Assembly (NCBI GenBank): GCA_025934485.1
Contig: JAICXX010000014.1
Location: 1 to 64,000 of the forward strand
DNA: 64,000 bases
Direction: 5' to 3'
DNA from: Chitinophagaceae bacterium
Lineage (GTDB): Bacteria; Bacteroidota; Bacteroidia; Chitinophagales; Chitinophagaceae
Made by a program: the position numbers and the translations under genes. Every line of letters begins with the position of its first letter. The stretch's first letter is position 1. The notes beneath the pieces are model-generated. The model searched no databases. It was not told where the DNA came from and worked only from the letters and a program-made list of their open reading frames with translations. Of the stretch, positions 28,426 to 48,767 are shown piece by piece.

Positions 28426-28579
28426 TTTTATTGGATTTTTCCCTACTTTAGCCTTGTCAACCCGTCACGCGGTTCAAAACAAAACGATTGATCTTATGCA
28501 GCCATATCGACCTCGCGCCATCTGTGCGCACGCTTCAAAGGTTTTGTTATCCTCACGTTTTACAAAAACTAAACTACAT

Positions 28580-31500
28580 ATGCGAAAATTCACCTTTCGA
28601 GACATCCTTGTTTCGAGTATTCTGACGATTGCTGTGAGCCTGTTTTCGTCTTCGTCGCTGTTCGCACAGGACGTCGGCGACGTGGTCCATGGAAAAGTGG
28701 TCGATTCCGCCGGCGCTCCCATCGGCGGAGCTACCGTATTGAATGTTAAAAGCGGGAAAGGGGCCCCTGTTGATGCAGATGGGAATTTCACCATCCGAGC
28801 GGTCAAAGGACAGACCCTGCAGATATCCTTTGTAGGGTATCAGTCGGCAAAGGTTGTCTACAAGGGACAGCCGAATGTCGCCGTAACGCTTTTACGCGAG
28901 AACACCGTCCTTGGGGATGTGGTGGTAATCGGTTATGGTACGCAGCGGAAAGAGGCGGTGACCGGATCGGTGGCCTCGATCGGCGGAACTACATTGCGCG
29001 AAGTGCCGGCGCCTAACATTTCCGATGCCTTGCAAGGCCGTTTGCCGGGTGTGGCTATATCGGAGACCTCGTCGCAGCCGGGTGCTACGATGCAGATCCG
29101 CATCCGTGGTACGCGTTCGCTGACGGCCACCAACGATCCGCTCATCGTGCTGGATGGGATCCCCTTCCCGGGAAATATCGCCGATATCGACATGAACGAT
29201 GTCAAGAGCCTGGATGTGCTGAAGGATGCGTCCGCTACGGCGATCTATGGTTCGCGCGGCGCCAACGGCGTAATCCTCATCACCACTTATAAAGGTATTT
29301 CGGGCCAGGAGCCGCGGATATCGGTCAACGGGTATTATGGTGCGAACAAGGTCTTCTCTAAATACCCGATGATGAACGGGCCGCAGTTTGCCGCTTTGCG
29401 CAAGGCGGCAGGTCGCTATTTGCAGCAGGGCGGAGCGATCCAATTGGGGGCCGACGAGAACCTAAACACCAATACCGACTGGCAGAGCCTGTTTTATCAA
29501 ACCGGCAACGTGACGAACGAGGACATCAGCGTTTCTGCGGGGACGAAGAGGGGAAGCTATAGCTTTGGCGGCTCTTTTTATAATAACGAGGGCGTGATCC
29601 CTACGCAGGGATACCGCCGTTTTTCGATCCATGGTTCGCTCGATCAGCGCGTTGGAAAATATGTTCGCATGGGCTTTACCACGAACAGCAACTATAATTA
29701 TACCCAGGGTTCGAATGTAGGGCTTTACAATGTGCTGTCCAGCTCGCCGCTTGCCAGCCCATATGACAGCCTCGGACATACGAAATATACCATAACGATG
29801 CCGCTGGATGTAACGTGGGTGGAGACCAAAAAAGTGATCGACAGTCTGAAGAACCAATACCTGAGCCAGCAAAAGGGATATGCCACTTACAATTCCATCT
29901 ATGGTGAGCTACAGATCCCGGGTGTGCCGGGATTGGCCTACCGCGTCAATGTGGGGCTGAATCTCTATGACCGCAAAACCGGTTCGTATACGGCGATGGG
30001 CGTCAACAGCAACAATCCCACGGCGCCGGCGACGGCCAACTCGGGTGATTCGTCGATAACGGATTGGACGGTAGAGAACCTGCTGACCTACGATCATAGC
30101 TTCGGAAAAAGTCAGATCAATGCACTGGCCTTGTATTCTACCGAGCGGACCCAGGGCAGCAGTACGAATATCGGCGGCATCGGCATTCCCTCGGACGCAT
30201 TGCAATACTACAATATCGGCACCGCCAGCCAGGAGATCGACGTTCTGCCGGGCGGTCAGGGTGGTCAGTTTTATTACGAAAGAGGGTTGTTGTCCTATAT
30301 GGGACGTTTGATGTATACGTATGATAATCGTTATATGATCTCAGCCACCGTTCGTTCGGATGGCGCCTCGGTATTGGCTCCCGCGCATCATTGGCATACC
30401 TATCCGGCCGTTTCCGCCGGTTGGAATGTAGCCAACGAGTCGTTCATGAAGGGCCTTCCCATGATCAATATGCTGAAGCTGCGGGCGGGTTATGGTCAAA
30501 CCTCCAACCAGAGCGTGCTTCCTTATTCCACGCTGGGTGTGTTGAGCACGAGCCCTTATAATTTTGGTTCTACCGGCTATGCTACGGGCTATTATGTGTC
30601 GCAGCTGCCTAATCCCGCACTGAGCTGGGAGTACTCGAAGACCTGGAATTATGGCGTCGACTTCAGCGTGCTGGACAACCGGCTTTCCGGTACGGTAGAA
30701 TATTATGTCACGAATACCAGCGGTTTGCTGCAGAGTGTGACGCTGGCGCCGACAAACGGTGTGGGCAGCTATACGGCCAATGTGGGCAATACGCAGAACA
30801 AGGGTATCGAATTCTCGTTGGAGGGAACCATCCTGAAAACGCATAGCGGTGTTACCTGGGATGCAGGCGTCAATATGTCGTTCAATCGGAACAAGGTCAC
30901 GCATCTGGCTTCCGGTGTCCTGGCGGACCAGACCAACTGGTGGTTTGTGGGACATCCGATTAATTCTATCTACGATTATCAGAAGATCGGATTATGGAAG
31001 AACGCGGCGGATAGTGCCGGCGGCCATGAGAATATTTTGCAGCCTGGCGGAACCCTCGGGACGATCAAAGTGAAATATACGGGCGGCTATGGCGCGAATG
31101 GCGTACCGAACCGGGCCATCGATCCGGATGACCGGCAGATCATGAATGCCGATCCTAATTTTATCGGCGGTTTCAATACGCGCGTCGCTTATAAGGGGTT
31201 TGATTTTACGGCAGTGGGCATCTTCCAAAGCGGGGGTATCCTGATCAGCACGATATATGGATCGGCCGGCTACCTCAATCTGGAGAGCGGCCGGAGGAAC
31301 AACTTGAATATCGACTATTGGACGCCTACCAATACCAACGCGAAATATCCCAATCCTGCAGGGCAGATCAGCGGGGACAACCCCATCTATGGTCAATCCT
31401 TAAGCTATTTCAGCGGATCGTATCTCAAGATAAGCACGCTTTCGCTTGGATATGATTTCACCAAATTTGCAAAGCGGTTCGGCGTACCGCAGGCGCGGCT

Positions 31501-31702
31501 CTATGTTACGGCGCAGAATCCGTTCGTGACCCTGTCGCCCTATCACAAGGAGACCGGGCTTGATCCGGAAACCAACTCGTATGCCGATCAGGCCGCCGAC
31601 GCTGCGGTGCCGCAACCTTCATCGTTGCACCGCTTCCTCACACAAGGATACAACACACCTGCCACGCGCAGCTATTTGGTAGGTCTTAACATAACCTTTT
31701 AA
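28580..31702 (+). CDS. SusC/RagA family TonB-linked outer membrane protein
   Basis: CarboxypepD_reg-like N-term, TonB plug (VVVIGYGTQRKEAVTGSVASI...LQGRLPGVAI...DVLKDASATAIYGSRGANGVILITT). Confidence 0.97.
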   Translation: MRKFTFRDILVSSILTIAVSLFSSSSLFAQDVGDVVHGKVVDSAGAPIGGATVLNVKSGKGAPVDADGNFTIRAVKGQTLQISFVGYQSAKVVYKGQPNVAVTLLRENTVLGDVVVIGYGTQRKEAVTGSVASIGGTTLREVPAPNISDALQGRLPGVAISETSSQPGATMQIRIRGTRSLTATNDPLIVLDGIPFPGNIADIDMNDVKSLDVLKDASATAIYGSRGANGVILITTYKGISGQEPRISVNGYYGANKVFSKYPMMNGPQFAALRKAAGRYLQQGGAIQLGADENLNTNTDWQSLFYQTGNVTNEDISVSAGTKRGSYSFGGSFYNNEGVIPTQGYRRFSIHGSLDQRVGKYVRMGFTTNSNYNYTQGSNVGLYNVLSSSPLASPYDSLGHTKYTITMPLDVTWVETKKVIDSLKNQYLSQQKGYATYNSIYGELQIPGVPGLAYRVNVGLNLYDRKTGSYTAMGVNSNNPTAPATANSGDSSITDWTVENLLTYDHSFGKSQINALALYSTERTQGSSTNIGGIGIPSDALQYYNIGTASQEIDVLPGGQGGQFYYERGLLSYMGRLMYTYDNRYMISATVRSDGASVLAPAHHWHTYPAVSAGWNVANESFMKGLPMINMLKLRAGYGQTSNQSVLPYSTLGVLSTSPYNFGSTGYATGYYVSQLPNPALSWEYSKTWNYGVDFSVLDNRLSGTVEYYVTNTSGLLQSVTLAPTNGVGSYTANVGNTQNKGIEFSLEGTILKTHSGVTWDAGVNMSFNRNKVTHLASGVLADQTNWWFVGHPINSIYDYQKIGLWKNAADSAGGHENILQPGGTLGTIKVKYTGGYGANGVPNRAIDPDDRQIMNADPNFIGGFNTRVAYKGFDFTAVGIFQSGGILISTIYGSAGYLNLESGRRNNLNIDYWTPTNTNAKYPNPAGQISGDNPIYGQSLSYFSGSYLKISTLSLGYDFTKFAKRFGVPQARLYVTAQNPFVTLSPYHKETGLDPETNSYADQAADAAVPQPSSLHRFLTQGYNTPATRSYLVGLNITF

Positions 31703-31713
31703 ATCTCGAGAAT

Positions 31714-33687
31714 ATGAAACGAATGCTTTTCAATAAAACATTGTTGGGGATGGCCCTGGCGGTACTATTCCTCGCGGGATGCAGTAAGGTCCTGCAGGAA
31801 CAGCCGCGCAGCAACTATACACCGAGCTTTTTTACTACACAAACCGGTGTTATCGGGGGATTAACGGAAATGTATGCACACCTTCGGCAATTTTATGGAG
31901 ATGGCTATTGGTACAATACCCTCGAGGTCGGCACCGACGAGTCGACCTATGGGCAGAGTGCCGATCAGAACTTCCTCGTCATGGATATGAGCGGTCGGGG
32001 GGCGATCACCTCCACCACCAGCCGTTCGGATGCGATTTGGAATGCCTGCTATACGAATATCAATACGGCCAGCGGCGTGATCCAATACGGGGCCAAGGCC
32101 GGCGTAAGTGCTGCGCTGACGTCGGAAGCCAATTTCTTCCGGGCCTTCGATTATTTCCTGTTGGTGCAGAGCTTTGGCGGCGTGCCCCTGGATCTGGGCG
32201 CGGGTATTTTGCAATTCAACACCTCGCCGCAGCCTGGCTCGGTGCGCAACAGTGTACAAAGCGTATACACCCAGTGTATCTTCCCGGACCTGCTGACAGC
32301 GATTAACAACCTGCCGATGAAATCGCGATTGACCGGCACCGTTACCAAGCCGGTGGCGCAGCTGTTCCTGGCCAAGGCGTATCTCACGTATGCCTGGTGG
32401 CTGAAGAACCCCAATAATATCCCTACCTACCCGGATTCGGGCCGTACCGATCCGGCCGGGCATGACGCGAGCTATTACTTTGCGCAGGCTTATACCGTTG
32501 CGACCAACGCTATCGAGAACCCCGGTCCTTATGGATTGCAGCCTACTTTCTATGATGTGAATGCGGGTGCAAACGACCGGAACAGCGAGATCATGCTGTA
32601 TGCCGACCATACGCAGCAGAGCCAGCAATACAATGCCGCGAGCCTTACGTATAGCAATGGCGCACCGCCCGACAATTTCTCTTGCTGGATGCAGACCTGG
32701 AACTACCCCGTGATCACGAGCAGCAAGAGTTCCAGTTCCTGGACGAATGTGAATTCGGTTCAGCGTCAGAGTGTACAGGGTTATGGCCGGCCGTATATCC
32801 GTATGGCTCCCACGATCGGCGCCATCGTGAATACGTTTGCCGATAAGACCAATGATTCCCGTTACGACGGCACTTTCCAGACGGTATACCGGGCGGATTT
32901 TGTCGAGGCCGGTTTAGGCTCGGGTACGTTCTACAATGCCAACTTTATGCCCGTCAGCGAGGGGAGCCCTATCCTTAGCTTTCTGCCTGATGAAACCCTT
33001 GCCGGGTCCATCGATTATTCGAACTCGGTATACAAGAGCAGTGTTGGTGCGGGTGTCACGCCGGGAAGAGCCGATTTCGTGATCGATCCCAATGGAATCA
33101 GCCGGATCGTCTTTCCGGGTCTTTGGAAGATCGGTGTCTACCGTACGGATAACGCAGGCGGATTGGGGAATCCGAACGCTGCCAGTACCCGGCCCTGGAA
33201 TATTGCCAAATTCTCGGAACTGTTCTTTATCGCGGCGGAGGCTGCTATAGAAGGTGCACCGACTTCCGCGGTAACCGGCACCTATGCCAACGACGGCACT
33301 GCCTATGGGTTGATCAATGTCATCCGTGCCCGGGCCGGTAAATGGAAATTCAACAATGCTGCTAACGCGGCACAGGTCGCAGATAACAGTGCTGCCATGG
33401 TCGCTGCCACGCCTCTAACGATCACGCTGGATTATCTTTTGGCGGAGCGTTCCCGTGAATATTACGGCGAAGGTTACCGTTGGTTCGACCTGGTTCGGAC
33501 GCAGGAGTGGACGAACCTTTCATCTTCTTACCAGATCTGTGGCACCGCCTATGGCAATCATACACCGGCGACGGTCGCGCGTACGATCACGCCAAACCTG
33601 TATCTGCGGCCTATACCGCAGGGACAATTGGATGCCATGCAGGTGAGTGCGGCGGTGAAGGCAGCCTATCAGAATCCGGGCTATTAA
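31714..33687 (+). CDS. SusD/RagB family nutrient-binding outer membrane lipoprotein
   Basis: Lipobox LFLAGCSK; C-term LLAERSREYYGEGYRWFDLVRTQEW; follows susC by 11 bp. Confidence 0.96.
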   Translation: MKRMLFNKTLLGMALAVLFLAGCSKVLQEQPRSNYTPSFFTTQTGVIGGLTEMYAHLRQFYGDGYWYNTLEVGTDESTYGQSADQNFLVMDMSGRGAITSTTSRSDAIWNACYTNINTASGVIQYGAKAGVSAALTSEANFFRAFDYFLLVQSFGGVPLDLGAGILQFNTSPQPGSVRNSVQSVYTQCIFPDLLTAINNLPMKSRLTGTVTKPVAQLFLAKAYLTYAWWLKNPNNIPTYPDSGRTDPAGHDASYYFAQAYTVATNAIENPGPYGLQPTFYDVNAGANDRNSEIMLYADHTQQSQQYNAASLTYSNGAPPDNFSCWMQTWNYPVITSSKSSSSWTNVNSVQRQSVQGYGRPYIRMAPTIGAIVNTFADKTNDSRYDGTFQTVYRADFVEAGLGSGTFYNANFMPVSEGSPILSFLPDETLAGSIDYSNSVYKSSVGAGVTPGRADFVIDPNGISRIVFPGLWKIGVYRTDNAGGLGNPNAASTRPWNIAKFSELFFIAAEAAIEGAPTSAVTGTYANDGTAYGLINVIRARAGKWKFNNAANAAQVADNSAAMVAATPLTITLDYLLAERSREYYGEGYRWFDLVRTQEWTNLSSSYQICGTAYGNHTPATVARTITPNLYLRPIPQGQLDAMQVSAAVKAAYQNPGY

Positions 33688-33697
33688 AATTAGGAAG

Positions 33698-36295
33698 ATG
33701 CGAATAGTACGCTTGGTCGTCGTGTTATGTTTTATGAGTATGAGAGGCTTTGCCCAGGACCTCCTAACGGAGAAGTTTGCCCCCGGCGTTTTTTCGGTAG
33801 TGTCGGGAAAAGCGACGGCAACTATTTGTGTCGACGATAGTGATTATACCCTGGTAAAAAAGGCAGCAGCTTTCTTACAACACGATATAGAACTGGTAAC
33901 CAATAAAAGACCGGCGGTGACGAATTCTTTGTCATCGCCGGTTAAAAATATCATCCTCATCGGTTCGGTGGGCCGGAGCGGGATGATCCGGCGACTGATC
34001 GATAATGGAAAGTTCAAAGTCGACAGCCTGCAGGGGCAATGGGAAGCCTATCGATTGCAGGTGGTGCACCGGCCATTTCCCGGAGTCGACAATGCGCTGG
34101 TGATTGCGGGCAGCGACCGGCGGGGTACTGCTTATGGCGTTTTTACTTTGTCGAGGCAAATGGGGGTATCGCCGTGGTATTGGTGGGCGGATGTACCGGT
34201 GAAGAAAAAACGGGAGATCTTTATAAAAGATGCGATCTACCGGGCCGGGCCGCCTTCCGTAAAGTACCGCGGTATCTTTCTAAACGATGAGGCGCCTGCC
34301 TTGTCGGGTTGGGTGCATGAGAAATTCGGTAATTTCAATCATCAATTTTATGAAAAGGTCTTTGAGCTGCTGTTGCGGTTAAAGGCCAATTATCTCTGGC
34401 CTGCCATGTGGGGCAATGCCTTCAACAATGACGATACGCTCAATCCGGTGATGGCCGATGAATACGGTATCGTCATGGGCACGTCGCACCAGGAGCCGAT
34501 GAACCAGGCCACGGAGCATTGGCGTCACTCCCAGTTAGGAGCATGGGACTATACCAGCAATGATTCCGTATTGCGGGATTTCTGGAGAAAGGGGATCGAA
34601 AATATGGATCATCGGGAAACCATCGTTACGCTTGGCATGAGGGGTGACGGCGATAAGCCGATGACGCAGGGTACGGCCATCGATCTTTTGGAACGGATCG
34701 TAGCGGACCAGCGAAAGATCATTGCCGATGTTACCGGCAAGCCGGCGTCCCAGACGCCGCAGGACTGGGCATTGTACAAAGAGGTGCAGGATTATTATGA
34801 TAAGGGCATGCGGGTACCGGATGATGTCACGCTTTTGCTGAGCGATGACAACTGGGGCGATATCCGCAGGTTGCCTTCTTTGACGGACAAGCCCAGGAGT
34901 GGCGGCTACGGGATTTATTATCATTTTGACTACGTAGGCGGCCCGAGGAATTATAAATGGCTTAATACGAATAATATTTCGAGGGTGTGGGAGCAGATGC
35001 ACCTGGCCTATGAATACGATGCGAGGAAAATATGGGTGGTGAATGTCGGCGATCTGAAACCCATGGAATTCCCGATTACGTTCTTCCTGGATTATGCCTG
35101 GGACGCCCATAAATGGGATGCCGGTAATTTGCCCGATTATTATACGCAATGGGCGGCGGAGCAGTTTGGACCGCCGCATGCCAGGGAGATCGGGGCGATC
35201 CTTCGACAATATACACAGATCAATGCCAGGAGGAAGCCGGAATTATTGAATGCCGATACGTATAGCCTTACCGATTACGATGAGTCGAACCGGGTTAAGG
35301 ACAACTACGATAAGCTGGCTGAAGAGGCCGGAAAACTCAGCGGCGAATTGCCGGAGGAATATAGGGAGGCTTTTTTCGAGCTGGTGCTTCACCCGGTAAA
35401 GGCGTGTGCGAACCTGCAGGACCTTTATACGGCGGTGGCCTGGAATCACTATTACGCACAGCGGAACGATTCGCGGGCGAATCCGTATGCCGATTCCGCG
35501 AAGCAATTTTATTTGAACGATTCGCTAATTTCGGCGGAGTATAATCATATGAACAACGGCGAGTGGGACCATATGATGGACCAGACACATATCGGTTACC
35601 GGTATTGGCAGGAGCCGAGGCACCAGTCGATGCCGGAGGTGACATATATTCCCGGCAATCCTTCGGGTGCCGGCGTCCCGACGGCCGGTTCAGGTGATGA
35701 TGCGGCCGATCCTACCGTTCGTTCCGCTGAGGTTTCCATTCCGAAGAATGCCGCCGGCCGGCTGTTCTATGAGCGGAACGGCTATGTTTCCATCGAGTCG
35801 GCGCATTATACGGGTAAGACCAACACCGGCGCGATCCAATGGCAGGTGATCCCAGGTATCGGCAGGGACGGGGACGGCATTACCACTTTTCCGGTAACGG
35901 CTATGACACAGGCCGCCGGTCCCGGCAGTCCGCGGCTCGATTATGTTTTTTATTGCTATGATACCGGTGCGGTACGGGTGAATGCTTATTTCTCTCCCAC
36001 GCTTAATTTCGGGCATGATTCCACGGGGTTGCAATATGCCATGTCCATAGACGGAGAAACGCCGCAAGTGGTTTCCATCAATAAGGACGATGCTAATCCG
36101 AGGATATGGGGCGCTTGGGTAGCGAATGATGTCATTATCACCACTACAGGCCATAGCATACCCCGGAAGGGAAAGCATACCATTAAGTTCTGGCGGGTGA
36201 GCCCGGGAGTCGTATTACAGAAGATCGTGGTCGATTTCGGGGGAGAGAAACCGAGTTATCTGGGACCGCCGGAAACGCTGTTCCGTGCGAAATAA
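33698..36295 (+). CDS. GH115 family (xylan alpha-1,2-glucuronidase-type) glycosyl hydrolase
   Basis: DRRGTAYGVFTLSRQMGVSPWYWWADVPVKK, VKYRGIFLNDEAPALSGW, LLLRLKANYLWPAMW. Confidence 0.93.
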   Translation: MRIVRLVVVLCFMSMRGFAQDLLTEKFAPGVFSVVSGKATATICVDDSDYTLVKKAAAFLQHDIELVTNKRPAVTNSLSSPVKNIILIGSVGRSGMIRRLIDNGKFKVDSLQGQWEAYRLQVVHRPFPGVDNALVIAGSDRRGTAYGVFTLSRQMGVSPWYWWADVPVKKKREIFIKDAIYRAGPPSVKYRGIFLNDEAPALSGWVHEKFGNFNHQFYEKVFELLLRLKANYLWPAMWGNAFNNDDTLNPVMADEYGIVMGTSHQEPMNQATEHWRHSQLGAWDYTSNDSVLRDFWRKGIENMDHRETIVTLGMRGDGDKPMTQGTAIDLLERIVADQRKIIADVTGKPASQTPQDWALYKEVQDYYDKGMRVPDDVTLLLSDDNWGDIRRLPSLTDKPRSGGYGIYYHFDYVGGPRNYKWLNTNNISRVWEQMHLAYEYDARKIWVVNVGDLKPMEFPITFFLDYAWDAHKWDAGNLPDYYTQWAAEQFGPPHAREIGAILRQYTQINARRKPELLNADTYSLTDYDESNRVKDNYDKLAEEAGKLSGELPEEYREAFFELVLHPVKACANLQDLYTAVAWNHYYAQRNDSRANPYADSAKQFYLNDSLISAEYNHMNNGEWDHMMDQTHIGYRYWQEPRHQSMPEVTYIPGNPSGAGVPTAGSGDDAADPTVRSAEVSIPKNAAGRLFYERNGYVSIESAHYTGKTNTGAIQWQVIPGIGRDGDGITTFPVTAMTQAAGPGSPRLDYVFYCYDTGAVRVNAYFSPTLNFGHDSTGLQYAMSIDGETPQVVSINKDDANPRIWGAWVANDVIITTTGHSIPRKGKHTIKFWRVSPGVVLQKIVVDFGGEKPSYLGPPETLFRAK

Positions 36296-36338: not shown

Positions 36339-38264
36339 ATGAGACGGAGAATCAGCTTTGTACTCCTATGCTTAACGACGTATCTAATTCCCTATGCACA
36401 AGTAAGATTACCGCGTCTGGTGAGCGATAGCATGATCCTGCAGCGGGATGTGAAGATCAATATCTGGGGTTGGGCGTCGAAGCGCGAACGGGTGACGGTC
36501 AAATTCAACGGCAGAACCTATCGATCGAAGACGGGCGCCGACGGTAAATGGGCGTTGGAATTGCCGGCGATGAAGGCGGGCGGCCCCTATACCATGGAGA
36601 TCAGCGGGAAAAACAAGATCATCCTGCATGACGTGCTTATCGGTGATGTTTGGCTTTGTTCCGGGCAGTCGAATATGGTGCACCAGATGAGGCTGCACAG
36701 TGTGCGTTATGCCGATGAGATAGCCGCGGCACATTACCCGGAGATCAGGCAATTCTGGATACCGACATTAACCGATGTGCAGGGGCCGAAGGACGACCTG
36801 CCGCCGGGTAGCTGGAAATCGGCCAACCCGGAAGATGTGCTGGAATTTTCGGCGGTGGCTTATTTTTTCGCGCGCGATCTCTACGAGAAATACCATATTC
36901 CGATAGGCATCATTAATGCCAGTGTCGGCGGGACGCCTATCGAAGCGTGGATGAGCGAGCAGGGGTTCAAGGACTTTCCCGAGTTATCGGCGACGGTTGA
37001 GAAGAACAAAGACACTGCCTATATCAACGGTCTGAGCCATAAGAGGCCTATGGGCGATATGCCGCGGCCGGTGGACAAGGGGCTGGCGGGTTCGACACCA
37101 TGGTACAGTCCTGCTTATATTCCCAAAGAATGGCGACCGATCGGGGTGCCGGGTTATTGGGAGGACCAGGGCCTGCGGAATCTCGACGGGGTGGTTTGGT
37201 ACCGGCGGGAGATCGATGTTCCGGCGGCCATGACCGCCGGACCGGCCAAGGTTTTCCTGGGAAGGATCGTAGATGCGGATGCGTTATACATCAACGGGAA
37301 GGAAGTAGGAAATACGACCTATCAGTATCCGCAAAGGAGATATGCCGTTCCGGCCGGTGTGCTTAAAGCGGGCAAGAATCTATTTGTCGTTCGTGTGACC
37401 AACACGTTTGGTAAGGGCGGCTTTGTTCCCGACAAGCCATATTGCCTGATTGCCGGGAGCGATACGGTCGATCTCAAGGGCTATTGGGATTATAAGGTAG
37501 GGGAAGTCTTCGTCCCGCGACGGAGATTTGGCGGCGGCGGCCTTGGTTTTTCGGCGCAGAATGCGCCGGCGGCGTTGTACAATGCAATGATCGCGCCGGT
37601 GGTAAATTATCGCATAAAGGGCTTTGTCTGGTACCAGGGAGAAGCCAATACGGGCCGCGCGGCCGAGTATGCAAAATTGCAGCCCGCACTGATCGCCGAC
37701 TGGCGCGCGAAGTGGGACGAAGGCGAGATCCCGTTTTTATATGTGCAGCTACCGGGTTTTGGGGATTACAACTACCTGCCGGAAGAAAGCTCCTGGGCGG
37801 AACTGCGGGAGGCGCAACTGAAATCCCTGTCGGTCCCCAATACGGGCATGGCCGTGGCCATCGATCTCGGCGAATGGAACGATCTCCATCCCGACAGGAA
37901 AAAGCCGGTGGGGGACCGTTTGGCGCTGGCAGCGGAGCATATCGCGTATGGCGAAGATATCGTGTATTCGGGGCCCATTTATAGTTCGGCGGCCATTTCG
38001 GGCGATAAGATAACCATTTCCTTTTCCCATACGGGCGGCGGGTTGATCACTAACGATGGCGAAGAGCCGCAGGAGTTCGCCATTGCGAGCGCCGATAAAA
38101 AATTCGTTTGGGCCCAGGCGAAGATCGAGGGCGACAAGGTGGTCGTTTGGAGTGCGGAGGTTAAAGATCCCAAATATGTGCGATATGCCTGGGCGGATAG
38201 TCCCGTGGACCCGAACCTGTTCAACAAGGAGGGACTGCCGGCATCGCCCTTTGAGACGGAATAA
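36339..38264 (+). CDS. Sialate O-acetylesterase-type SGNH esterase (CE20-like, with inserted jelly-roll module)
   Basis: WLCSGQSNMVHQM, jelly-roll insert VVWYRREIDVPAAM...DADALYINGKEVGNTTYQYPQRRYAVP, FVWYQGEANTG, NDLHPDRKKPVGDRLA. Confidence 0.92.
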   Translation: MRRRISFVLLCLTTYLIPYAQVRLPRLVSDSMILQRDVKINIWGWASKRERVTVKFNGRTYRSKTGADGKWALELPAMKAGGPYTMEISGKNKIILHDVLIGDVWLCSGQSNMVHQMRLHSVRYADEIAAAHYPEIRQFWIPTLTDVQGPKDDLPPGSWKSANPEDVLEFSAVAYFFARDLYEKYHIPIGIINASVGGTPIEAWMSEQGFKDFPELSATVEKNKDTAYINGLSHKRPMGDMPRPVDKGLAGSTPWYSPAYIPKEWRPIGVPGYWEDQGLRNLDGVVWYRREIDVPAAMTAGPAKVFLGRIVDADALYINGKEVGNTTYQYPQRRYAVPAGVLKAGKNLFVVRVTNTFGKGGFVPDKPYCLIAGSDTVDLKGYWDYKVGEVFVPRRRFGGGGLGFSAQNAPAALYNAMIAPVVNYRIKGFVWYQGEANTGRAAEYAKLQPALIADWRAKWDEGEIPFLYVQLPGFGDYNYLPEESSWAELREAQLKSLSVPNTGMAVAIDLGEWNDLHPDRKKPVGDRLALAAEHIAYGEDIVYSGPIYSSAAISGDKITISFSHTGGGLITNDGEEPQEFAIASADKKFVWAQAKIEGDKVVVWSAEVKDPKYVRYAWADSPVDPNLFNKEGLPASPFETE

Positions 38265-38293: not shown

Positions 38294-39913
38294 TTGAATA
38301 AAGCACTATTCCTTTCGGTTGCGGTTCTTTGTTGCGCATCGGAGCTAAGCGCACAAACAGCATCGCTGCCCAGGCTGGTAAAGACCGGCGTCTCCACCCA
38401 ATTGCTGGTAGATAACAAGCCTTACCTGGTCCTCGGTGGCGAACTGGGAAATTCGAGCGCGTCGAGCAATGATTATATGAGACCGGTGTGGCCGAAGCTC
38501 AGACAGATGAATATGAACACCGTAATCGCCCCCGTGTATTGGGAGCTAATGGAGCCCGTGGAGGGGCAGTTCGATTTTTCGCTGTTGGACAGCCTGATCA
38601 CGAATGCCCGGCTGAATGACATGAAGCTGGTCTTGCTTTGGTTCGGCTCGTGGAAGAACAGCATGTCCTGTTATGCGCCGGCATGGGTCAAGACCGATGT
38701 GAAAAGGTTTCCCAGGTCGCTGAATAGAGATGGCGTTCCGCAGGAGATCCTGTCTCCGTTCAGTAAGGACAACCTGGACGCCGATAAAAAGGCCTTTGTG
38801 GCGTTGATGCGGCATATCCGGGAGGCCGATGACCGGCAACATACGGTGATCACCATCCAGGTAGAAAATGAAATAGGCATGCTTGGCAGCGCTCGCTCCT
38901 ATGATGAGGCGGCGAACGCGGCATTCGGCCGCCCTGTTCCGCGCGAGCTGCTGGCTTACCTGCAGAAGAACAAGGACAATTTAACGCCGCAGCTGGACTC
39001 ACTGTGGAAAATTAACGGGTTCAAGACCTCCGGTAATTGGGAAGCTGTTTTTGGCAAAGGCCTGGCGACAGACGAGATGTTCATAGCCTGGAACTATGCA
39101 AGGTATGTAAACGAGATCGCCGCGGCGGGGAAGGCGGTTTATGACCTGCCGATGTATGTCAATACGGCCTTGAACCGCGCCGGCTGGAGACCCGGGGTAT
39201 ATCCCAGCGGCGGCCCCGTGCCGCATTTGAGGGACATCTGGAAGGCAGGTGCGCCGGCCATCGACCTTTTGGCACCGGATATCTATTTCCCCGATCTACA
39301 GCATTGGTGCGATCTGTATACCCGTTCTGCCGCCCCGCTCTTCATACCCGAGATCCATTTTGAAAAGGATGACGGCGCCAAGGCATTCTTTGCTTTCGGG
39401 CACTATGACTGTCTGTCTTTTTCGCCGTTTTCGATCGAGTCGGCCGAGCATCCGGAGAACGAACCTATCGGCAAGGCTTACCGGGTTCTGCGAGAGGTCA
39501 GCCCGCTGATCGTGAAATACAGACCGGAAGGAAAAGTAAGTGGTTTTTTGTTGAGCAAGGATTCTTCCTCGCAGACCGTCACCGTGGGCGATTACCGGAT
39601 TACGGTAAAGCACGATTTTACCTTGCCCTGGTCGCCCGGTTCGCGGGAAGGCCAGTGGCCCCTTACGGGATGCCTGATCATCGCCGTATCGCCCGACGAA
39701 TTTTTTGTGGCAGGCACGGGGTCGGTAGTCAGGTTTGCTTCGGCTGATCCCGGGAAATGCGCGGGGCTGTTGAGCGTGGATGAAGGAGATTTCGAAGATG
39801 GTAGATGGGTGCCTGGCCGTCGCATGAATGGGGACCAGGACAACCAGGGCAGGGATATCAGGATACCGATGAATGAATACGGCATCCAGCGTGTTAAACT
39901 ATATCAATATTAA
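38294..39913 (+). CDS. GH35-type beta-galactosidase with DUF5597-like C-terminus (TTG start)
   Basis: MNTVIAPVYWELMEPVEGQFDFSLLDSLI, ITIQVENEIGM, PLFIPEIHFE. Confidence 0.88.
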   Translation: MNKALFLSVAVLCCASELSAQTASLPRLVKTGVSTQLLVDNKPYLVLGGELGNSSASSNDYMRPVWPKLRQMNMNTVIAPVYWELMEPVEGQFDFSLLDSLITNARLNDMKLVLLWFGSWKNSMSCYAPAWVKTDVKRFPRSLNRDGVPQEILSPFSKDNLDADKKAFVALMRHIREADDRQHTVITIQVENEIGMLGSARSYDEAANAAFGRPVPRELLAYLQKNKDNLTPQLDSLWKINGFKTSGNWEAVFGKGLATDEMFIAWNYARYVNEIAAAGKAVYDLPMYVNTALNRAGWRPGVYPSGGPVPHLRDIWKAGAPAIDLLAPDIYFPDLQHWCDLYTRSAAPLFIPEIHFEKDDGAKAFFAFGHYDCLSFSPFSIESAEHPENEPIGKAYRVLREVSPLIVKYRPEGKVSGFLLSKDSSSQTVTVGDYRITVKHDFTLPWSPGSREGQWPLTGCLIIAVSPDEFFVAGTGSVVRFASADPGKCAGLLSVDEGDFEDGRWVPGRRMNGDQDNQGRDIRIPMNEYGIQRVKLYQY

Positions 39914-39923
39914 ACGGAAGTCC

Positions 39924-42455
39924 ATGAAACGAATTCTTTTCTGTTTGGTGGTGCTGGCTTCGATCCAAAGAGGGCAGGCCCAGGACACCATCGTAAACGG
40001 AACCCGGTATCCGCGGCCGGTGATCTTTACCGCCCAGGAGGATCATGACAACATGATGCGGCAGCTGGGTATCACTGAATTGAGGCCGGGGCCCAGCGGC
40101 GATGCCAATGCGCCTAATCATGCGAACTATGATGAGACAAAGGCGAATCCCTGTCCCATGTTGCCGGATGCGCTGACCTTGAAAGACGGGCAGAAGGTGA
40201 CGACGGCCGGGATATGGTGGACCCAGCGGCGTCCTGAGATCGTCGGGGATCTCGAGCGCGAAGTATATGGGCGGATGCCTGCCCATACGCCCGGGGTGAC
40301 CTGGACGGTGAAGGTGACCGATCACGAATTGGTGGGGTTCATGCCGGTGATCGCAAAAGAACTGGTCGGACATGTCGATAATAGCGACTACCCTTTGATC
40401 GACGTGAACATCAAAATGACCGTAGTCGTACCGGCAAATGCAAAGGGGCCGGTGCCGGTGCTGATGATGTTCGGCCGTCCGGAACTTCCTGCGCCCGCGC
40501 AACCGTCGCCCGAAGAAATGGAAAAATTGAATTCGGTTTTTAAGGAGATGATGATAAAGGCCGATCCATCCGTAAAAGAGATCTTCGATAAATACCCGGC
40601 GTATTCACCTGTCACCCGTCTGCCGGCACCGAATTTTTTTGCGCCGCGGCCGGCAGAGCTTCCGCCTACGGAGCAGCTGATCCGTGCAGGGTGGGGCTAT
40701 GCGACGATCGATCCGAACAGCATACAGGCCGATAATGGAGATGGTCTGACGAAGGGGATCATCGGGTTGGTGAATAAGGGCCAGCCGCGTAAACCGGAAG
40801 ACTGGGGAGCGCTTCGCGCCTGGGCCTGGGGGGCAGCGCGCGGCCTCGATTACCTCGAGACCGATCCCGCCGTGGATGCGCGAAAGGTGGGGATCGAAGG
40901 CGTCTCCAGATACGGCAAGGCTGCGCTGGTCACGCTGGCCTTCGAGCCAAGGTTTGCGGTCGGGTTGATCGGGTCGTCCGGGAAAGGCGGCGCGACCTTG
41001 CTGCGGCGCAATTATGGCGAAGCCGTGGAGAGTCTCACGGGTGGGGAATACTATTGGATGGCGGGGAATTTCCTTCGTTATGGTGCGGCCGCGGCGGGTT
41101 TCGGCAGCAAGACGGGTTGCGATCTCGACGTCGACTCGCATGAGCTGATCGCGCTATGTGCGCCGCGGCTCACCTTTATCAGCTATGGCATTCCGGAAAA
41201 AGGCGATGCGCATTGGCTCGATCATGAAGGCAGCTATAGGGCCACCATCGCGGCGGGCGCGGTATTCAAATTGTTGGGCGCCGGCGATCTGGGCGTTTCC
41301 AATGATTATATGAAGGAGAAGATGCCGCCGGTAGATTCGGGATTGCTGGGCGGTGTGCTGGCATGGCGGCAACATGACGGCGGCCATACCGATGCGCCAA
41401 ACTTCAAGTATTTTATCCCGTGGGCCAGTAAATCCCTTGGCGATGAAAATGCTAAAGGCCTGAAGGATTACTATAAGGACTATTTTCCCATCGGTGTGGC
41501 CGTCGCTCCGCGGGACCTGCATGGCGATGAGGCTGGGCTGATCCTGCAACAGTTCAACAGCCTGACGCCGGAAAATGCGATGAAGATGGGGCCCATCCAT
41601 CCGCAGGAGAATGTTTATAACTGGGCGGATGCGGATTCGATCGTCGCCTTTGCGCAGCGACATCATCTGCGGGTACGCGGACATAATCTATGCTGGCATA
41701 ATCAGGCGCCCCGATGGATGTTTAAGGATTCTGCCGGAAACACGGTTTCGAAGGAGGTATTGTTACGGCGGCTCAAGGATCATATCACGACGGTCGTCAG
41801 CAGGTACAAGGGCAAATTATACGCATGGGATGTCGTAAACGAGGCTATTGCGGACGATAGCGCGCATGTTATGCGGCCTTCCTTATGGTACCGGATCTGC
41901 GCGGAAGAATTCATTGAAAAGGCTTTCGAGTGGGCCCATGCTGCGGACCCCAAGGCGGTGCTCTTCTATAACGATTATAACACCGAGAACCCCGCGAAAA
42001 GAGAAAAGATCTATACGATGCTGAAGAAGCTGCTGGCCAAAGGCGTGCCGATCAACGGCATCGGTCTGCAGGCGCACTGGTCCATCAGCACGCCGACGCG
42101 TGAAGAGCTCGAAAAATCCATCCGGCTTTTTTCTTCGCTGGGATTGCAGGTACAGATCACCGAATTGGATATCTCCGTGTATCCCGGTCATCAAGGTGGG
42201 CAGATCGTGACCGGCAATGGCGGCAATGGGGTGGATTCCGGTTTTACGCCGGAGATGGAACAGAAACAGCTGGACCAGTACAAAATGGCTTTCGAGGTTT
42301 TCCGCAAATACAGGAAGAAGATCACGGGCGTAACGTTTTGGAATGTCTCGGATCGTTATAGCTGGCTGGACAGGCGTGGCAGGAAGAACTATCCGCTGCT
42401 CTTCGATAAGGACCTTCAGCCGAAGAAGGCGTATGATGCCGTGGTGAATTTCTGA
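39924..42455 (+). CDS. Bimodular CE15 glucuronoyl esterase - GH10 endoxylanase
   Basis: CE15: GIEGVSRYGKAALVTLAFEPRFAVGLIGSSGKGGATLLRRNYGE...HDGGHTDAPN; GH10: LTPENAMKM, GHNLCWHNQAP, WDVVNEAI, QITELDIS. Confidence 0.94.
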   Translation: MKRILFCLVVLASIQRGQAQDTIVNGTRYPRPVIFTAQEDHDNMMRQLGITELRPGPSGDANAPNHANYDETKANPCPMLPDALTLKDGQKVTTAGIWWTQRRPEIVGDLEREVYGRMPAHTPGVTWTVKVTDHELVGFMPVIAKELVGHVDNSDYPLIDVNIKMTVVVPANAKGPVPVLMMFGRPELPAPAQPSPEEMEKLNSVFKEMMIKADPSVKEIFDKYPAYSPVTRLPAPNFFAPRPAELPPTEQLIRAGWGYATIDPNSIQADNGDGLTKGIIGLVNKGQPRKPEDWGALRAWAWGAARGLDYLETDPAVDARKVGIEGVSRYGKAALVTLAFEPRFAVGLIGSSGKGGATLLRRNYGEAVESLTGGEYYWMAGNFLRYGAAAAGFGSKTGCDLDVDSHELIALCAPRLTFISYGIPEKGDAHWLDHEGSYRATIAAGAVFKLLGAGDLGVSNDYMKEKMPPVDSGLLGGVLAWRQHDGGHTDAPNFKYFIPWASKSLGDENAKGLKDYYKDYFPIGVAVAPRDLHGDEAGLILQQFNSLTPENAMKMGPIHPQENVYNWADADSIVAFAQRHHLRVRGHNLCWHNQAPRWMFKDSAGNTVSKEVLLRRLKDHITTVVSRYKGKLYAWDVVNEAIADDSAHVMRPSLWYRICAEEFIEKAFEWAHAADPKAVLFYNDYNTENPAKREKIYTMLKKLLAKGVPINGIGLQAHWSISTPTREELEKSIRLFSSLGLQVQITELDISVYPGHQGGQIVTGNGGNGVDSGFTPEMEQKQLDQYKMAFEVFRKYRKKITGVTFWNVSDRYSWLDRRGRKNYPLLFDKDLQPKKAYDAVVNF

Positions 42456-42570: not shown

Positions 42571-44034
42571 ATGACTAGTAAAAAGAGGAAGGGATGGGGG
42601 CTGTTCTTATTGCTGTTTTCCGGATCCGCTTGTTTTGCCCAGATCAGAGTGCCCAGGATGATAAGTGACGGCATGGTCCTGCAACGGGAGATGCCGCTGC
42701 GCATCTGGGGGTTTGGCACACCGGGAGAAAAGGTGACGGTCAAGTTTGACGGCGAGACAGCGAGCAGTGTCACTGCCGATGATGGGAAATGGATCGTTGA
42801 GCTTTCGCCCAAAAAAGCCGGTGGTCCTTATTCGATGGACATCGACGGCATCAATCACATCTGGCTCAAGAATATCATGGTGGGGGAGGTCTGGTTCTGT
42901 TCCGGGCAGTACAATATGCAGCTGCCGATGGAGCATGTCAGGGAGCAGTATGCAGAGCTGATCGCCCATGCGGGCGATGTTCCGGTCCGGCAGTTCTATA
43001 TCGGTGAACATTATGACTACAAGGGACCGCGGAACAACGTGGCCGGCGGGCATTGGGAGACGGCTGATACCAATTCCGTGCTGACCTTCTCTGCGCTGGG
43101 GTATCTTTTTGCACGGCAGATCTACGACCACTATCACTGTGCGGTGGGGTTGATCAATGCCTGTGTGGGTGATGCGCCGGCCGAGGCCTGGCTGAGTCCG
43201 GATGCGTTGCGGCAATTTCCCGAATATGCGTCTGCTGCCACCCGTTATGCCGACAGTGTGTTTCCGGAGGGCGCGGGCCCGGCGGATCGCATGGCTACCG
43301 GGGGCCTGTTCAATGGCATGGTGGCCCCGGCGGATCTGTACACGGTACGGGGTATCCTTTGGTGGCAGGGAGAGGCCAATGTGTCGAAGGCGGGCGATTA
43401 TTCCGCTATTTTTCCGCTTGTTATCCAGGACTGGCGGCGGCATTGGGTGGAAAACGAGATGCCATTCCTCTATGTGCAGCTGGAGGCCCATGGACCGGTG
43501 CAGGAGCAGCCGGGCGAGAGTACCTGGGCCGATCTGCGGGAGGCACAGCGTATGGCATTGACGTTACCGGGGACGGGGATGACGGTCAGCGCCGATCTCG
43601 ATGCGGACGGCAAGCTGCAACCGAAGGATTACGAGGAGGTCGCGCGGCGGCTGATGGTGTCGGCCGAAGGCGTTGCCTATGGAAAGAAGGACATCATTTT
43701 TTCCGGTCCGCTTTATGAATCGATGAAGGTGCATGGCGATAAGGTGCACATCCTTTTCACCGATGCCGGTAATGGGCTGGTCGTCAAGGATGGTGGTGAG
43801 CTCAAGGGCTTTGCCATTGCGGGACCCGATAACAAGTTCGTACCGGCCAGGGCCGAGACGGATGGAAAGAAGGTGATCGTATGGAGCGATCAGGTTCCAC
43901 ATCCTGTGGCCGTGCGATACGGCTGGGCGAATAATCCTTATGGCGTCAATTTATACAACCGCGATCTGCTATTCAAAGACGGGTTACCTGCCCCCCCTTT
44001 TGCAGGTCGTGCCAAGGTGAAGAAAAGCCCGTAG
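42571..44034 (+). CDS. SGNH acetylesterase paralogue lacking the catalytic triad (predicted pseudoesterase)
   Basis: Collinear with the 36339 gene but CSGQYNM in place of CSGQSNM and GKLQP in place of NDLHP. Confidence 0.88.
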   Translation: MTSKKRKGWGLFLLLFSGSACFAQIRVPRMISDGMVLQREMPLRIWGFGTPGEKVTVKFDGETASSVTADDGKWIVELSPKKAGGPYSMDIDGINHIWLKNIMVGEVWFCSGQYNMQLPMEHVREQYAELIAHAGDVPVRQFYIGEHYDYKGPRNNVAGGHWETADTNSVLTFSALGYLFARQIYDHYHCAVGLINACVGDAPAEAWLSPDALRQFPEYASAATRYADSVFPEGAGPADRMATGGLFNGMVAPADLYTVRGILWWQGEANVSKAGDYSAIFPLVIQDWRRHWVENEMPFLYVQLEAHGPVQEQPGESTWADLREAQRMALTLPGTGMTVSADLDADGKLQPKDYEEVARRLMVSAEGVAYGKKDIIFSGPLYESMKVHGDKVHILFTDAGNGLVVKDGGELKGFAIAGPDNKFVPARAETDGKKVIVWSDQVPHPVAVRYGWANNPYGVNLYNRDLLFKDGLPAPPFAGRAKVKKSP

Positions 44035-44050
44035 ACGAAGATCAACAAGA

Positions 44051-45310
44051 TTAATGCTGTGAGGGGTCGTTCACCACGCCGATGAACAGGATCAGACCCG
44101 TGGTTTTTTCCCGGATGAGATAGACAAAGGGGTGATCGAATTTAACTGCCAGCGTAGCAGGTGCAGACGTGGTCGCCATGCCGACACCCGTAACGGCGGC
44201 GGCTACTGTGCCATTTTCCGATACGGAAATATAGGTCTTATGGATAACCTGGGAGATGTTCGTTTGCTCGCCGGGGTACATCGTGGTGAAATTCGCATGG
44301 TCCGAAAAGGCGATGCCCATACCCAGCGCCGTGAGCTCGGGTTCCATATTATCGATACCATAGCTGTATTCCCATTTGGGCATGGTCAGGTCGATCTTTG
44401 CCGAATCGAGGGTATTCAGGGCCTGCCCAAGGGTCGTCGCGTTCAACCCGCTGACGAAGGAGTTGATAGGTTGGGTCCTGCTAACGGGTAAGACGAGGTA
44501 CATGTCGAATGCTTCCCCTGTGCCATAGGGCATTTCGACCATGATCAGGTTGCTGTCCGAATGAAGACGCAACAAGGCCGTTTGGGTCATGAAGGGAACG
44601 GTGGCGGTGCTTCCCGTGGAGGTAAAGAAAGGTCCATTTTGGGTGGCGCTGGAGGGAAAGCCATGGAGCCAGGAGCCATTGAAGTAAACGGCATTTACCA
44701 GAAGCATGACAAGGGCGGGGTCGAGTTGCTTTAGCAGCTGGGGGATCTTGCCTGCTGTATTCTTCGAGACCCAGCTATTGATCGTATTCAGCGATCCCGG
44801 ATTGGTGAAGTCGAGGGGTTGTACCGCTCCCTGGTAACTATTGGTCATGCTGTCTTTGAAGCCCGGTGCGGGTGCCGGGAATTTCGTTGCATACCAAATG
44901 GAATTGGCGATACTCAGCTGGACCTTGCTGTCCTCTTTGGGCAGCTGTTGGAGGAGCGCGTGGCTTACGGCATTGAGCCGACCCAGCGGGACGCCCGACA
45001 GCTGGAGGGTCGCGGCCATCGAATCCGCGGTGGACCCGGCGGCGCCGTTGTAGACCATGTCCAGGGCAAGGTAGATGCTCAGCGGGGAGATCAGGGTGTT
45101 GGGCCCGGCGGGTTCTGTTTTCAGGGTCTGCTGAAACGTATTGATGGCAAACTGGTTGGCGGCGTCGGTTACGGCGGTACTCCCGGCTGGCAGGTCGAGG
45201 GGCGTGTCGACGCCGGGTCCCGGGATCGTTTTATGACAGGAAGCAAACGTTAGCGCAAAAAAAAGGATAAGGCCTGCGAAGAGGTCTCCGGCGAAGGTGC
45301 GGGGCTCCAT
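44051..45310 (-). CDS. Serpin family protease inhibitor, predicted lipoprotein
   Basis: Lipobox LTFASC; NAVYFNGSWLHGF; HKTYISVSENGTVAAAVTGVGM...VKFDHPFVYLIREKTTGLILFIGVV. Confidence 0.94.
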   Translation of the reverse strand: MEPRTFAGDLFAGLILFFALTFASCHKTIPGPGVDTPLDLPAGSTAVTDAANQFAINTFQQTLKTEPAGPNTLISPLSIYLALDMVYNGAAGSTADSMAATLQLSGVPLGRLNAVSHALLQQLPKEDSKVQLSIANSIWYATKFPAPAPGFKDSMTNSYQGAVQPLDFTNPGSLNTINSWVSKNTAGKIPQLLKQLDPALVMLLVNAVYFNGSWLHGFPSSATQNGPFFTSTGSTATVPFMTQTALLRLHSDSNLIMVEMPYGTGEAFDMYLVLPVSRTQPINSFVSGLNATTLGQALNTLDSAKIDLTMPKWEYSYGIDNMEPELTALGMGIAFSDHANFTTMYPGEQTNISQVIHKTYISVSENGTVAAAVTGVGMATTSAPATLAVKFDHPFVYLIREKTTGLILFIGVVNDPSQH

Positions 45311-45401: not shown

Positions 45402-47576
45402 ATGAAACGACTTTTAACGATTGTATTTGCCGGCATGATCCTGCGGGCCGGGGCTCAGCAGGAAGCCTATCTGAATCCCACTCTTCCCATCGATGTGCGG
45501 GTCAACGATCTTATTTCCCGGATGACGCCGGAGGAGAAGGTGTATCAGATGATGAACAGTACGCCGGCCATTCCCCGGTTACATATACCCGCTTATGACT
45601 GGTGGAACGAGGCGTTGCATGGCGTGGCCCGGAGTGGCATTGCCACGATCTTCCCGCAGCCTATAGGTATGGCCGCGACGTTTGACGATGGGCTTGTACA
45701 CCAGGTGGCCACGGCCATCTCGGATGAGGCCAGGGCGATGTACAATGCCGCCATGCAAAAGGATTATCATTCCCGGTTTGGCGGGCTGACGTTTTGGACG
45801 CCCAACATCAATATCTTCCGTGACCCGCGTTGGGGCAGGGGGCAGGAGACATATGGCGAGGATCCTTTTCTGACGTCCAAAATGGGAGTAGCGTTGGTCA
45901 CGGGGCTGCAGGGTGATGATCCGCGTTATTTAAAAGTCGCGGCGTGTGCCAAACATTATGCGGTCCACAGCGGTCCCGAGCGGCTGCGGCATCAATTCGA
46001 TGCCGAGGTGTCGCCCAAGGATCTGTGGGAGACCTATCTGCCGGCCTTTCATGCATTGGTCAATGCCAAGGTCGAGGCGGTGATGTGCGCGTATAATCGT
46101 ACGGATGGGGAGGCCTGCTGTGCGAATACGTACCTGCTGGATGATGTGCTGCGGAAGCAATGGGGTTTTAAGGGACATATCGTGTCGGACTGTGACGCGA
46201 TCGCCGATATCTACGAGGGGCATAAGTTGGTGTCGAGTAAGATGGGGGCAGCCGTGCTGGCCTTGCAGCGCGGGGTGAATCTGAATTGCGGGGATACCTA
46301 TCTTTCGTTGCTGGATGCCCTGCACCAGGGCCTGGTCACGCAAAAGGAGATCGACAGTTCGCTGGCGGTCCTGCTGAGGACGCGGTTCCGGTTGGGGATG
46401 TTCGATCCTGCGGGGATGGATCCGTATGATAAGATCCCGGTGTCGGTTATCAATAGCCCCGAGCATCGGGCGTTGGCGCGGAAGGCCGCGGAGAAGTCGG
46501 TGGTGTTGTTGAAGAACGACGGCGCCTTGCCGTTGTCGAATGGGTTAAAGAAATATTATATCACGGGACCCAATGCCGCCGCGGTGGATGTATTGTTGGG
46601 TAACTATTATGGTGTCAACGACCGGCTGGTGACGATCCTGGAGGGCCTGGCGGGTCAGGCGCAGCCGGGCAGCCAGATGACCTACCGGCAGGGGGTGTTG
46701 CTGGACCGGCCCAATGTGAATCCTATCGATTGGGCATCGGGTGAAGCCGCTACGGCGGATGCTACGATCGCGGTGCTGGGCATTTCGGGTCTGCTGGAAG
46801 GGGAGGAAGGCGAGTCGCTGGCTTCGCCTTCGTTCGGGGACCGGCTCGATTACAATATCCCAGCTGCGCAGATCGAGTATTTGAAGAAACTCAAGAAGGA
46901 CAACCCGCATCCGGTGATTGCCGTCATCACCGGTGGGAGTCCGATGAATCTCGAAGAGGTGCAGAAGTTGGCCGACGCGGTGTTGCTGGTATGGTATCCC
47001 GGCGAGGAAGGCGGGAATGCCGTGGCCGATATCCTATTTGGAAAACTTTCGCCTTCGGGAAAGCTGCCGGTGACCTTTCCTCGTTCGTACGACCAGCTGC
47101 CGCCGTATGAGGATTATTCGATGAAGGGGCGGACCTACCGGTATATGAGTGCCGAGCCTTTGTATCCGTTTGGATTTGGGCTCAGCTACACCAGTTTTGC
47201 CTACAGCGATATCCAGGTTTCGAAGGCCAGGATAAAAAAGAACGAAATCGTTTCCGTAGCCGTGACCCTCACCAATACGGGGAAAATGGCCTCGGATGAG
47301 GTCGCGGAGCTGTATGTTACACATGAAGGCATGGGACAAGACGTGCCTTTGTTTTCATTGAAAGGGTTCCAGCGTGTATCTTTGGCCCCCGGCGCCTCCA
47401 CGCGGTTGAATTTTACCCTGACTCCGGAGCAGCTGGCGTTGGTGGACGCGGCAGGTAAGTCATATGAACCGGCGGGGAAGATCAGGATCAGTGTGGGCGG
47501 GTCCTTGCCTACGAGTCGAAGCGCGGCGCTTGGAGCGCCGCAGGCGGCGACAGTGGAAGTGGAAGTGTCTAAATAA
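45402..47576 (+). CDS. Glycoside hydrolase family 3 (beta-xylosidase/glucosidase)
   Basis: DWWNEALHGVARSG, GQETYGEDPFLT, GHIVSDCDAIADI, SGKLPVTFPRSYDQLPPYEDYSMKGRTYRY. Confidence 0.95.
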   Translation: MKRLLTIVFAGMILRAGAQQEAYLNPTLPIDVRVNDLISRMTPEEKVYQMMNSTPAIPRLHIPAYDWWNEALHGVARSGIATIFPQPIGMAATFDDGLVHQVATAISDEARAMYNAAMQKDYHSRFGGLTFWTPNINIFRDPRWGRGQETYGEDPFLTSKMGVALVTGLQGDDPRYLKVAACAKHYAVHSGPERLRHQFDAEVSPKDLWETYLPAFHALVNAKVEAVMCAYNRTDGEACCANTYLLDDVLRKQWGFKGHIVSDCDAIADIYEGHKLVSSKMGAAVLALQRGVNLNCGDTYLSLLDALHQGLVTQKEIDSSLAVLLRTRFRLGMFDPAGMDPYDKIPVSVINSPEHRALARKAAEKSVVLLKNDGALPLSNGLKKYYITGPNAAAVDVLLGNYYGVNDRLVTILEGLAGQAQPGSQMTYRQGVLLDRPNVNPIDWASGEAATADATIAVLGISGLLEGEEGESLASPSFGDRLDYNIPAAQIEYLKKLKKDNPHPVIAVITGGSPMNLEEVQKLADAVLLVWYPGEEGGNAVADILFGKLSPSGKLPVTFPRSYDQLPPYEDYSMKGRTYRYMSAEPLYPFGFGLSYTSFAYSDIQVSKARIKKNEIVSVAVTLTNTGKMASDEVAELYVTHEGMGQDVPLFSLKGFQRVSLAPGASTRLNFTLTPEQLALVDAAGKSYEPAGKIRISVGGSLPTSRSAALGAPQAATVEVEVSK

Positions 47577-47585
47577 GCATAAACT

Positions 47586-48767
47586 ATGGAGCGACCTTTT
47601 TTAATGGAAGAAACGATGCGCTGGTATGGCCCTAACGATCCCGTGAGTCTTTGGGATATCCGTCAGGCGGGCTGTACGGGGGTGGTCACGGCCCTGCATC
47701 ATGTCCCGGTGGGCGAAGTCTGGACAAAGGAAGAGATCAACAAGAGAAAGATGGAAGTCGAGGCGGCTGGCATGCGCTGGACGGTGATCGAGAGTCTTCC
47801 GGTGCATGAAGATATCAAGAAGCAAACGGGCAACTATCAAGGATATATCCGCAATTACAAGGAGAGCCTGCGCAATGTCGCTGCTCTGGGTCTCGAGGTC
47901 GTGACGTACAACTTCATGCCGATCCTGGACTGGATGCGTACCGATATCGCCTATGAGATGGCGGACCGGAGCAAGGCGTTGCGGTTCGAGAAGGCGGCAT
48001 TCATCGCCTTTGATCTGTTCCTGCTCAAGCGGCCGGGAGCTGCTGCCGATTATACGCCCGGCGAGGTTGCCAAGGCCGAGCGGCGGCTGGCTACGATGAC
48101 CGAAGAGGAGAAGGAGACCTTGTACCGGAATACGCTATTGGGGTTGCCGGGCAGCGAAGAGCGGTTTACGGAGGAACAGATCCTGAAGGCGTTGAAAACA
48201 TATGAAGGTATAGATGCTGCGAAACTCAAACAGCATCTCTTTTACTTTCTTCAACAGGTTGTGCCGGTGGCGGAAGAGTTGGGGTTGAAGATGGCCATAC
48301 ACCCCGATGATCCGCCATATCCAATATTAGGGCTCCCGAGGATTGTAAGCACCGAACAGGATGCCCGGGAGTTGCTGGACTGTGCGCCGTCTCCCGCCAA
48401 TGGGCTTTGTTTTTGTACCGGGAGCTATGGCGTACGGGCCGACAATGATCTGCCCGGTATGGTCAGCCGGCTGGGGGATCATATCCATTTTATCCATTTA
48501 CGCAGCACGAAACGGGATGCGGAGGGCAATTTCTTCGAAGCCGACCATTTAGGCGGGGATGTGGATATGGTGGCGGTGGTCCGGGAACTGCTGGCCGTGC
48601 AGCAGCGACGGAACTTGTCGCTGCCGATGCGTCCCGACCATGGGCATCAGATGCTGGATGATCTCAAAAAGAAAACCTATCCGGGTTATAGCGCGATCGG
48701 GCGGCTGCGTGGGTTGGCGGAACTGAGGGGGATACAATGGGCATTATCTGCAAAAACTCATTCATGA
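47586..48767 (+). CDS. uxuA: Mannonate dehydratase
   Basis: [65 protein letters not shown]. Confidence 0.96.

Follow-up and report, generated by a model that had tools for sequence, protein, structure and literature searches.

The gene at positions 42,571-44,034 on the forward strand of the window, the 64,000-nucleotide stretch of Chitinophagaceae DNA analysed here, encodes a homologue of carbohydrate esterase family 20 (CE20) that has been retained under purifying selection after the loss of its catalytic residues. Its product (P0001, 487 amino acids, from an intact reading frame) is very probably a pseudoesterase with a non-enzymatic role so far undescribed. We think it fairly probable that P0001 is exported, that it no longer hydrolyses esters by the CE20 route and that it is kept for a non-catalytic role, most likely the binding of xylo-oligosaccharides or of a partner protein via its beta-sandwiches.

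The CE20 affinity of P0001 is seen in a match to the Pfam SASA domain (PF03629, 46.6 bits), in the solved structures closest to it by sequence, which are both CE20 (9h4u, E=2.5e-114; 9ega, E=9.5e-114), and in a Foldseek search whose best nine matches are all CE20, in agreement with the sequence search. Read by eye, the protein begins with a predicted type I signal peptide (approximately residues 1-23; 42,571-42,639), with a hydrophobic run before the mature start, at which relatives end in FAQ or IAQ; the same reading found in this peptide no lipobox, the outer-membrane lipoprotein signal of surface glycan-binding proteins. The SGNH core is bracketed by an N-terminal beta-sandwich (residues 24-105; 42,640-42,885) and by a C-terminal one (residues 373-480; 43,687-44,010). 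An AF2 model derived from a six-row alignment has a moderate mean pLDDT of 62.6, and for this reason no geometry is argued from it.

The solved enzyme used for comparison is Fl8CE20_II (9h4u), in which Ser112, His515 and Asp513 form a water-mediated triad and Gly199 is an oxyanion-hole residue, and whose D513A mutant is inactive (PMC12313940). When P0001 is aligned to this enzyme the serine is found to be replaced by Tyr114 (42,910-42,912), the oxyanion-hole glycine by Asp201 (43,171-43,173), the catalytic or anchoring aspartate by Lys348 (43,612-43,614) and the histidine by Gln350 (43,618-43,620). The corresponding blocks read CSGQYNM (residues 110-116), CVGDAP and GKLQP (residues 347-351), as against CSGQSNM, SVGGTP and NDLHP in the paralogue P0002 encoded at 36,339-38,264 of the same strand, and the two proteins align gap-free across the first and the last of these. 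The initial annotation had reported the Ser, Asp and His replacements as well as the intact motifs of the paralogue, and the open reading frame and the alignments to the paralogue and to 9h4u bear it out on both counts. The motif that it gave as Asp-x-x-His is in fact DxH, and its description of all three catalytic positions as replaced, correct in itself, understated the loss by overlooking both the glycine and an entire domain. This is the ancillary GH2-like beta-sandwich, which closes the active-site cleft in Fl8CE20_II; it is inserted in P0002 at residues ~232-408 (PF02837 match at 270-366) and is absent from P0001 at residues ~232-246 (43,264-43,308). Hence the view that the fold is otherwise intact applies to the frame and the remaining fold, but not to this domain, which supplies half of the active-site cleft of the paralogue. 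P0001 has none of the features that distinguish a CE20 enzyme, namely the Ser of GQSNM, the His of DxH, the oxyanion Gly of block II and the ancillary domain of cluster II, and ester hydrolysis via the CE20 mechanism would appear to be excluded, as far as sequence can show. A sequencing or assembly error behind the substitutions was ruled out, as Tyr114 and Gln350 have identical counterparts in the closest orthologue, from the congener G004.

We searched 33 genomes of the genus, along with 399 draws at the family level and 396 at the class level, and the motifs were read in the top-scoring loci of each search, a coverage from which more distant dead copies may have escaped. Copies with disrupted catalytic motifs, here termed dead, were recovered from four congeneric species besides that of the window, i.e. 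from five species in all. These are the copies of G004 (69% identical to P0001; CSGEYQM, AEAP and GGLQP), G009 (65%; LSGQMGM, PEAP and DDVPG), G012 (54%, an incomplete copy at the end of a contig, several of the genomes being fragmented drafts; CAGGSGM and AESP, with no DxH) and G017 (54%; CVGQSKM and AEAT, with block V deleted). The copies of G004, G009 and G017 adjoin the same GH3 and UxuA genes as in the window, and that of G012 adjoins UxuA. The same slot is occupied in G029 and G031 by active-type copies with the ancillary domain and in G032 by one without it, "active-type" denoting the presence of the catalytic motifs as judged from sequence alone. The G032 copy (L058:265-1722), with its intact motifs and lost ancillary domain, could represent an intermediate state. 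Further afield, CE20 homologues from Prevotellaceae (L039:3834-5897 and L042:7887-9935) show GGQSNA rather than SGQSNM in block I.

Across the family the catalytic histidine is kept in 75 of the 80 other rows of the alignment, and is missing only in the dead group and in one split gene fragment without block V. The catalytic aspartate position is naturally variable (D in 42 and N in 18 of 80 homologues, the rest having other residues), so its change to Lys348 says little when taken alone. Family-invariant positions are retained in the dead copies at 28 of 55 sites (51%) in the catalytic blocks I, II and V versus 386 of 427 (90%) elsewhere (Fisher p = 1.6e-11, a value that overstates independence as the five rows are related). 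This preferential loss in the three blocks implies more than chance drift.

Could the protein still be an esterase with a relocated dyad? The CE20 aspartate is dispensable in relatives that lack the ancillary domain, as in eukaryotic SIAE, which works by a Ser-His dyad (PMC12313940). Relocation of the catalytic residues, raised as a counter-possibility in the initial annotation, was accordingly sought in the sequences, and no newly conserved Ser or His was found near the blocks: the five dead copies share no serine in the vicinity of block I, and the sole histidine common to them, His96, sits in the N-terminal beta-sandwich. As the oxyanion glycine has moreover given way to an acid, we regard such an enzyme as very improbable. 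A different proposal is that the old pocket was rebuilt with new catalytic residues. It draws on the acid at position 201, which is present in all five dead copies (Asp or Glu) and in no other sequence among 81 homologues, and on Gln266 and Glu268, which are still present in P0001. The former oxyanion hole might on this basis have become a new pocket, made up of the acid at 201 with Gln266 and Glu268, that serves new chemistry or a specific ligand and that arose possibly more than once independently within the genus, an idea to which we attach little likelihood. The homologues do not conserve the Tyr/Lys/Gln combination whose survey had been suggested, the nucleophile position being Tyr, Tyr, Met, Ser and Ser and the histidine site Gln, Gln, Pro, Val and deleted in the five dead copies. 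Replacements of Ser, Asp and His that differ among species are the opposite of what a new conserved active site would produce, and constraint is now weakest in the SGNH core; the new chemistry that the initial annotation had entertained is therefore improbable.

The gene for P0001 has persisted under selection. The window and G004 copies, both with intact frames, differ with a dN/dS of 0.153 at a dS of 1.41, as compared to 0.140 for the active-type pair of G032 and G029 and to 0.078, 0.053 and 0.204 for the neighbouring GH3, UxuA and serpin genes respectively; these ratios are NG86 estimates and are rough, as dS is near saturation. Tyr114, Gln350, an acidic residue 201 and the missing insert are common to both copies, so that the simplest assumption is that they diverged after catalysis had been lost. 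Simulated neutral evolution at 0.2 substitutions per site along one lineage, a fraction of the divergence observed, introduced about 8 in-frame stops, and none of 1000 replicates was free of stops. A pseudogene was ruled out by the dN/dS and the open frames; with five dead copies, intact frames and purifying selection after the loss, the earlier verdict of a pseudoesterase rather than a decayed pseudogene stands. What we observe is thus an enzyme homologue without catalytic residues that is kept by selection, and in this sense a pseudoenzyme. A slowly decaying relic without function would be in keeping with amino-acid change that, relative to UxuA, is somewhat faster in the dead than in the active copies, and with the deletions in block V and the loops of the G017 copy; indeed, erosion may continue in G012 and G017, whose cores are shorter or gapped. 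Nevertheless, we hold such a relic to be very unlikely, given the open frames, the dN/dS of ~0.15 since the shared loss, the many stops expected under neutral drift and the retention of about 90% of the family-invariant non-catalytic positions.

The evidence on the number of times that catalysis was lost points both ways. All eight copies in the slot cluster together with 100/100 support, and within this cluster the dead five group together at 69/49 in the full tree. Upon removal of the catalytic columns the G017 copy joins the active-type copy of G031 at 86/91, and a constraint uniting the dead five in one clade is not rejected (AU p = 0.236). The acid at 201 common to the five favours a single loss, whereas the insert junctions of G012 and G017, which differ from those of the window trio, and the trees of neighbouring genes, in which the dead-copy genomes are not united, favour repeated loss.

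The gene lies in what looks like a glucuronoxylan utilization locus, whose members code for a LacI-type regulator, SusC-like, SusD-like and GH115 proteins (the last three at 28,454-36,295, forward strand), the CE20 paralogue P0002, a GH35-like protein, a CE15-like/GH10 fusion immediately upstream of the pseudoesterase (39,873-42,455, forward strand), a serpin, and the GH3 and UxuA proteins (45,402-48,767, forward strand), which are the conserved downstream neighbours of the slot. Fusions differ among the congeners: the CE15-like part is joined to GH10 in the window and to CE20 in G009 (L057:10298-13585). The serpin gene (44,051-45,310, reverse strand) is convergent with that of P0001 and lies 16 bp downstream of it; G004, G017 and G029 have a serpin gene at the equivalent place, where G009, G031 and G032 lack it. 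A second CE20, with motifs intact in its available parts, is present in all eight genomes with a slot copy, which would explain how the slot copy could be freed from its ancestral activity; the intact paralogue would probably cover xylan deacetylation. The P0002-type paralogue is partial in G032, and that of G029 (L062:8984-12271), whose slot copy is active-type, is broken by an in-frame stop.

An indication of what selection might be preserving comes from the distribution of constraint. The N-terminal beta-sandwich is the slowest evolving domain of P0001, and the ratio of its distance to that of the core, with the catalytic blocks excluded, is 0.54 [0.33-0.82] in a trio of dead copies versus 0.97-1.75 in five active-type trios, with a bootstrap overlap of 0 to 0.03; the contrast, though strong, has an exception in the active-type pair of G032 and G029, whose ratio is low as well (0.52). 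Constraint has moved from the SGNH core to the N-terminal beta-sandwich in the dead copies, which lends indirect support to the carbohydrate-binding or scaffold role suggested in the initial annotation. Based on these observations we propose that, with the nucleophile Ser, the base His, the anchor Asp, the oxyanion Gly and the cleft-forming ancillary domain gone, the pseudoesterase would carry out no hydrolysis by the CE20 route and may be kept by selection, most likely for binding to xylo-oligosaccharide (in acetylated or glucuronoylated form) or to another protein encoded in the xylan locus, the contacts probably being made by its beta-sandwiches and chiefly by the one at the N terminus. Glycan binding at the old active site is less likely, because the domain that completes the cleft has been lost. 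P0001 might instead act purely through protein-protein contact, with a regulatory or chaperone-like effect on the active CE20 paralogue or another enzyme of the locus. The now most constrained N-terminal beta-sandwich could be the interface, and the active-type paralogue coexists in all eight genomes, in G009 directly adjacent to the dead copy across a 7-bp gap; however, in G012 and G017 the two are on separate contigs, and no CE20 oligomerisation is described in PMC12313940. We consider this role, the main alternative, rather unlikely.

Pseudoenzymes have been examined extensively in eukaryotic signalling; to our knowledge they have rarely been documented in bacterial polysaccharide utilization loci. 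From annotation alone P0001 would be named an acetyl esterase, and counts of CE20 genes should accordingly not be taken as counts of deacetylases. The occurrence in one slot of active-type, insert-less active-type and dead versions provides a series for tracing the passage from an esterase to a non-catalytic protein and for probing the role of the pseudoesterase in xylan use. Literature searches on SGNH and CAZyme pseudoenzymes and on inactive carbohydrate esterases brought up no CE20 pseudoenzyme at the level of titles and abstracts, which does not prove absence.

Among known systems the nearest are the enzymes of CE20 cluster II (Fl8CE20_II, 9h4u; PpCE20_II, 9ega), which resemble P0001 in sequence, fold, the N-terminal beta-sandwich/SGNH/C-terminal beta-sandwich layout and placement in a xylan locus (PMC12313940), but from which it differs in lacking the Ser, His, Asp, oxyanion Gly and ancillary domain. 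Eukaryotic SIAE (8f9o-8f9r) is, like P0001, a CE20 protein of similar length without the ancillary domain; however, both residues of its Ser-His dyad are replaced in P0001. A precedent for non-catalytic polysaccharide binding is CtCE2 of Clostridium thermocellum, the active site of whose SGNH esterase module binds cellulose non-catalytically (PMC2661963), though unlike P0001 it keeps the Ser-His dyad and activity. Dead members of hydrolase families comparable to P0001 are also known among plant GDSL proteins (PMC4757993) and beetle GH28 proteins, the latter pseudoenzymes being important in pectin digestion (PMC6549527) and thus likewise connected to the breakdown of the plant cell wall; these are eukaryotic and belong to other families, whereas P0001 is a bacterial CE20 homologue in a polysaccharide utilization locus.
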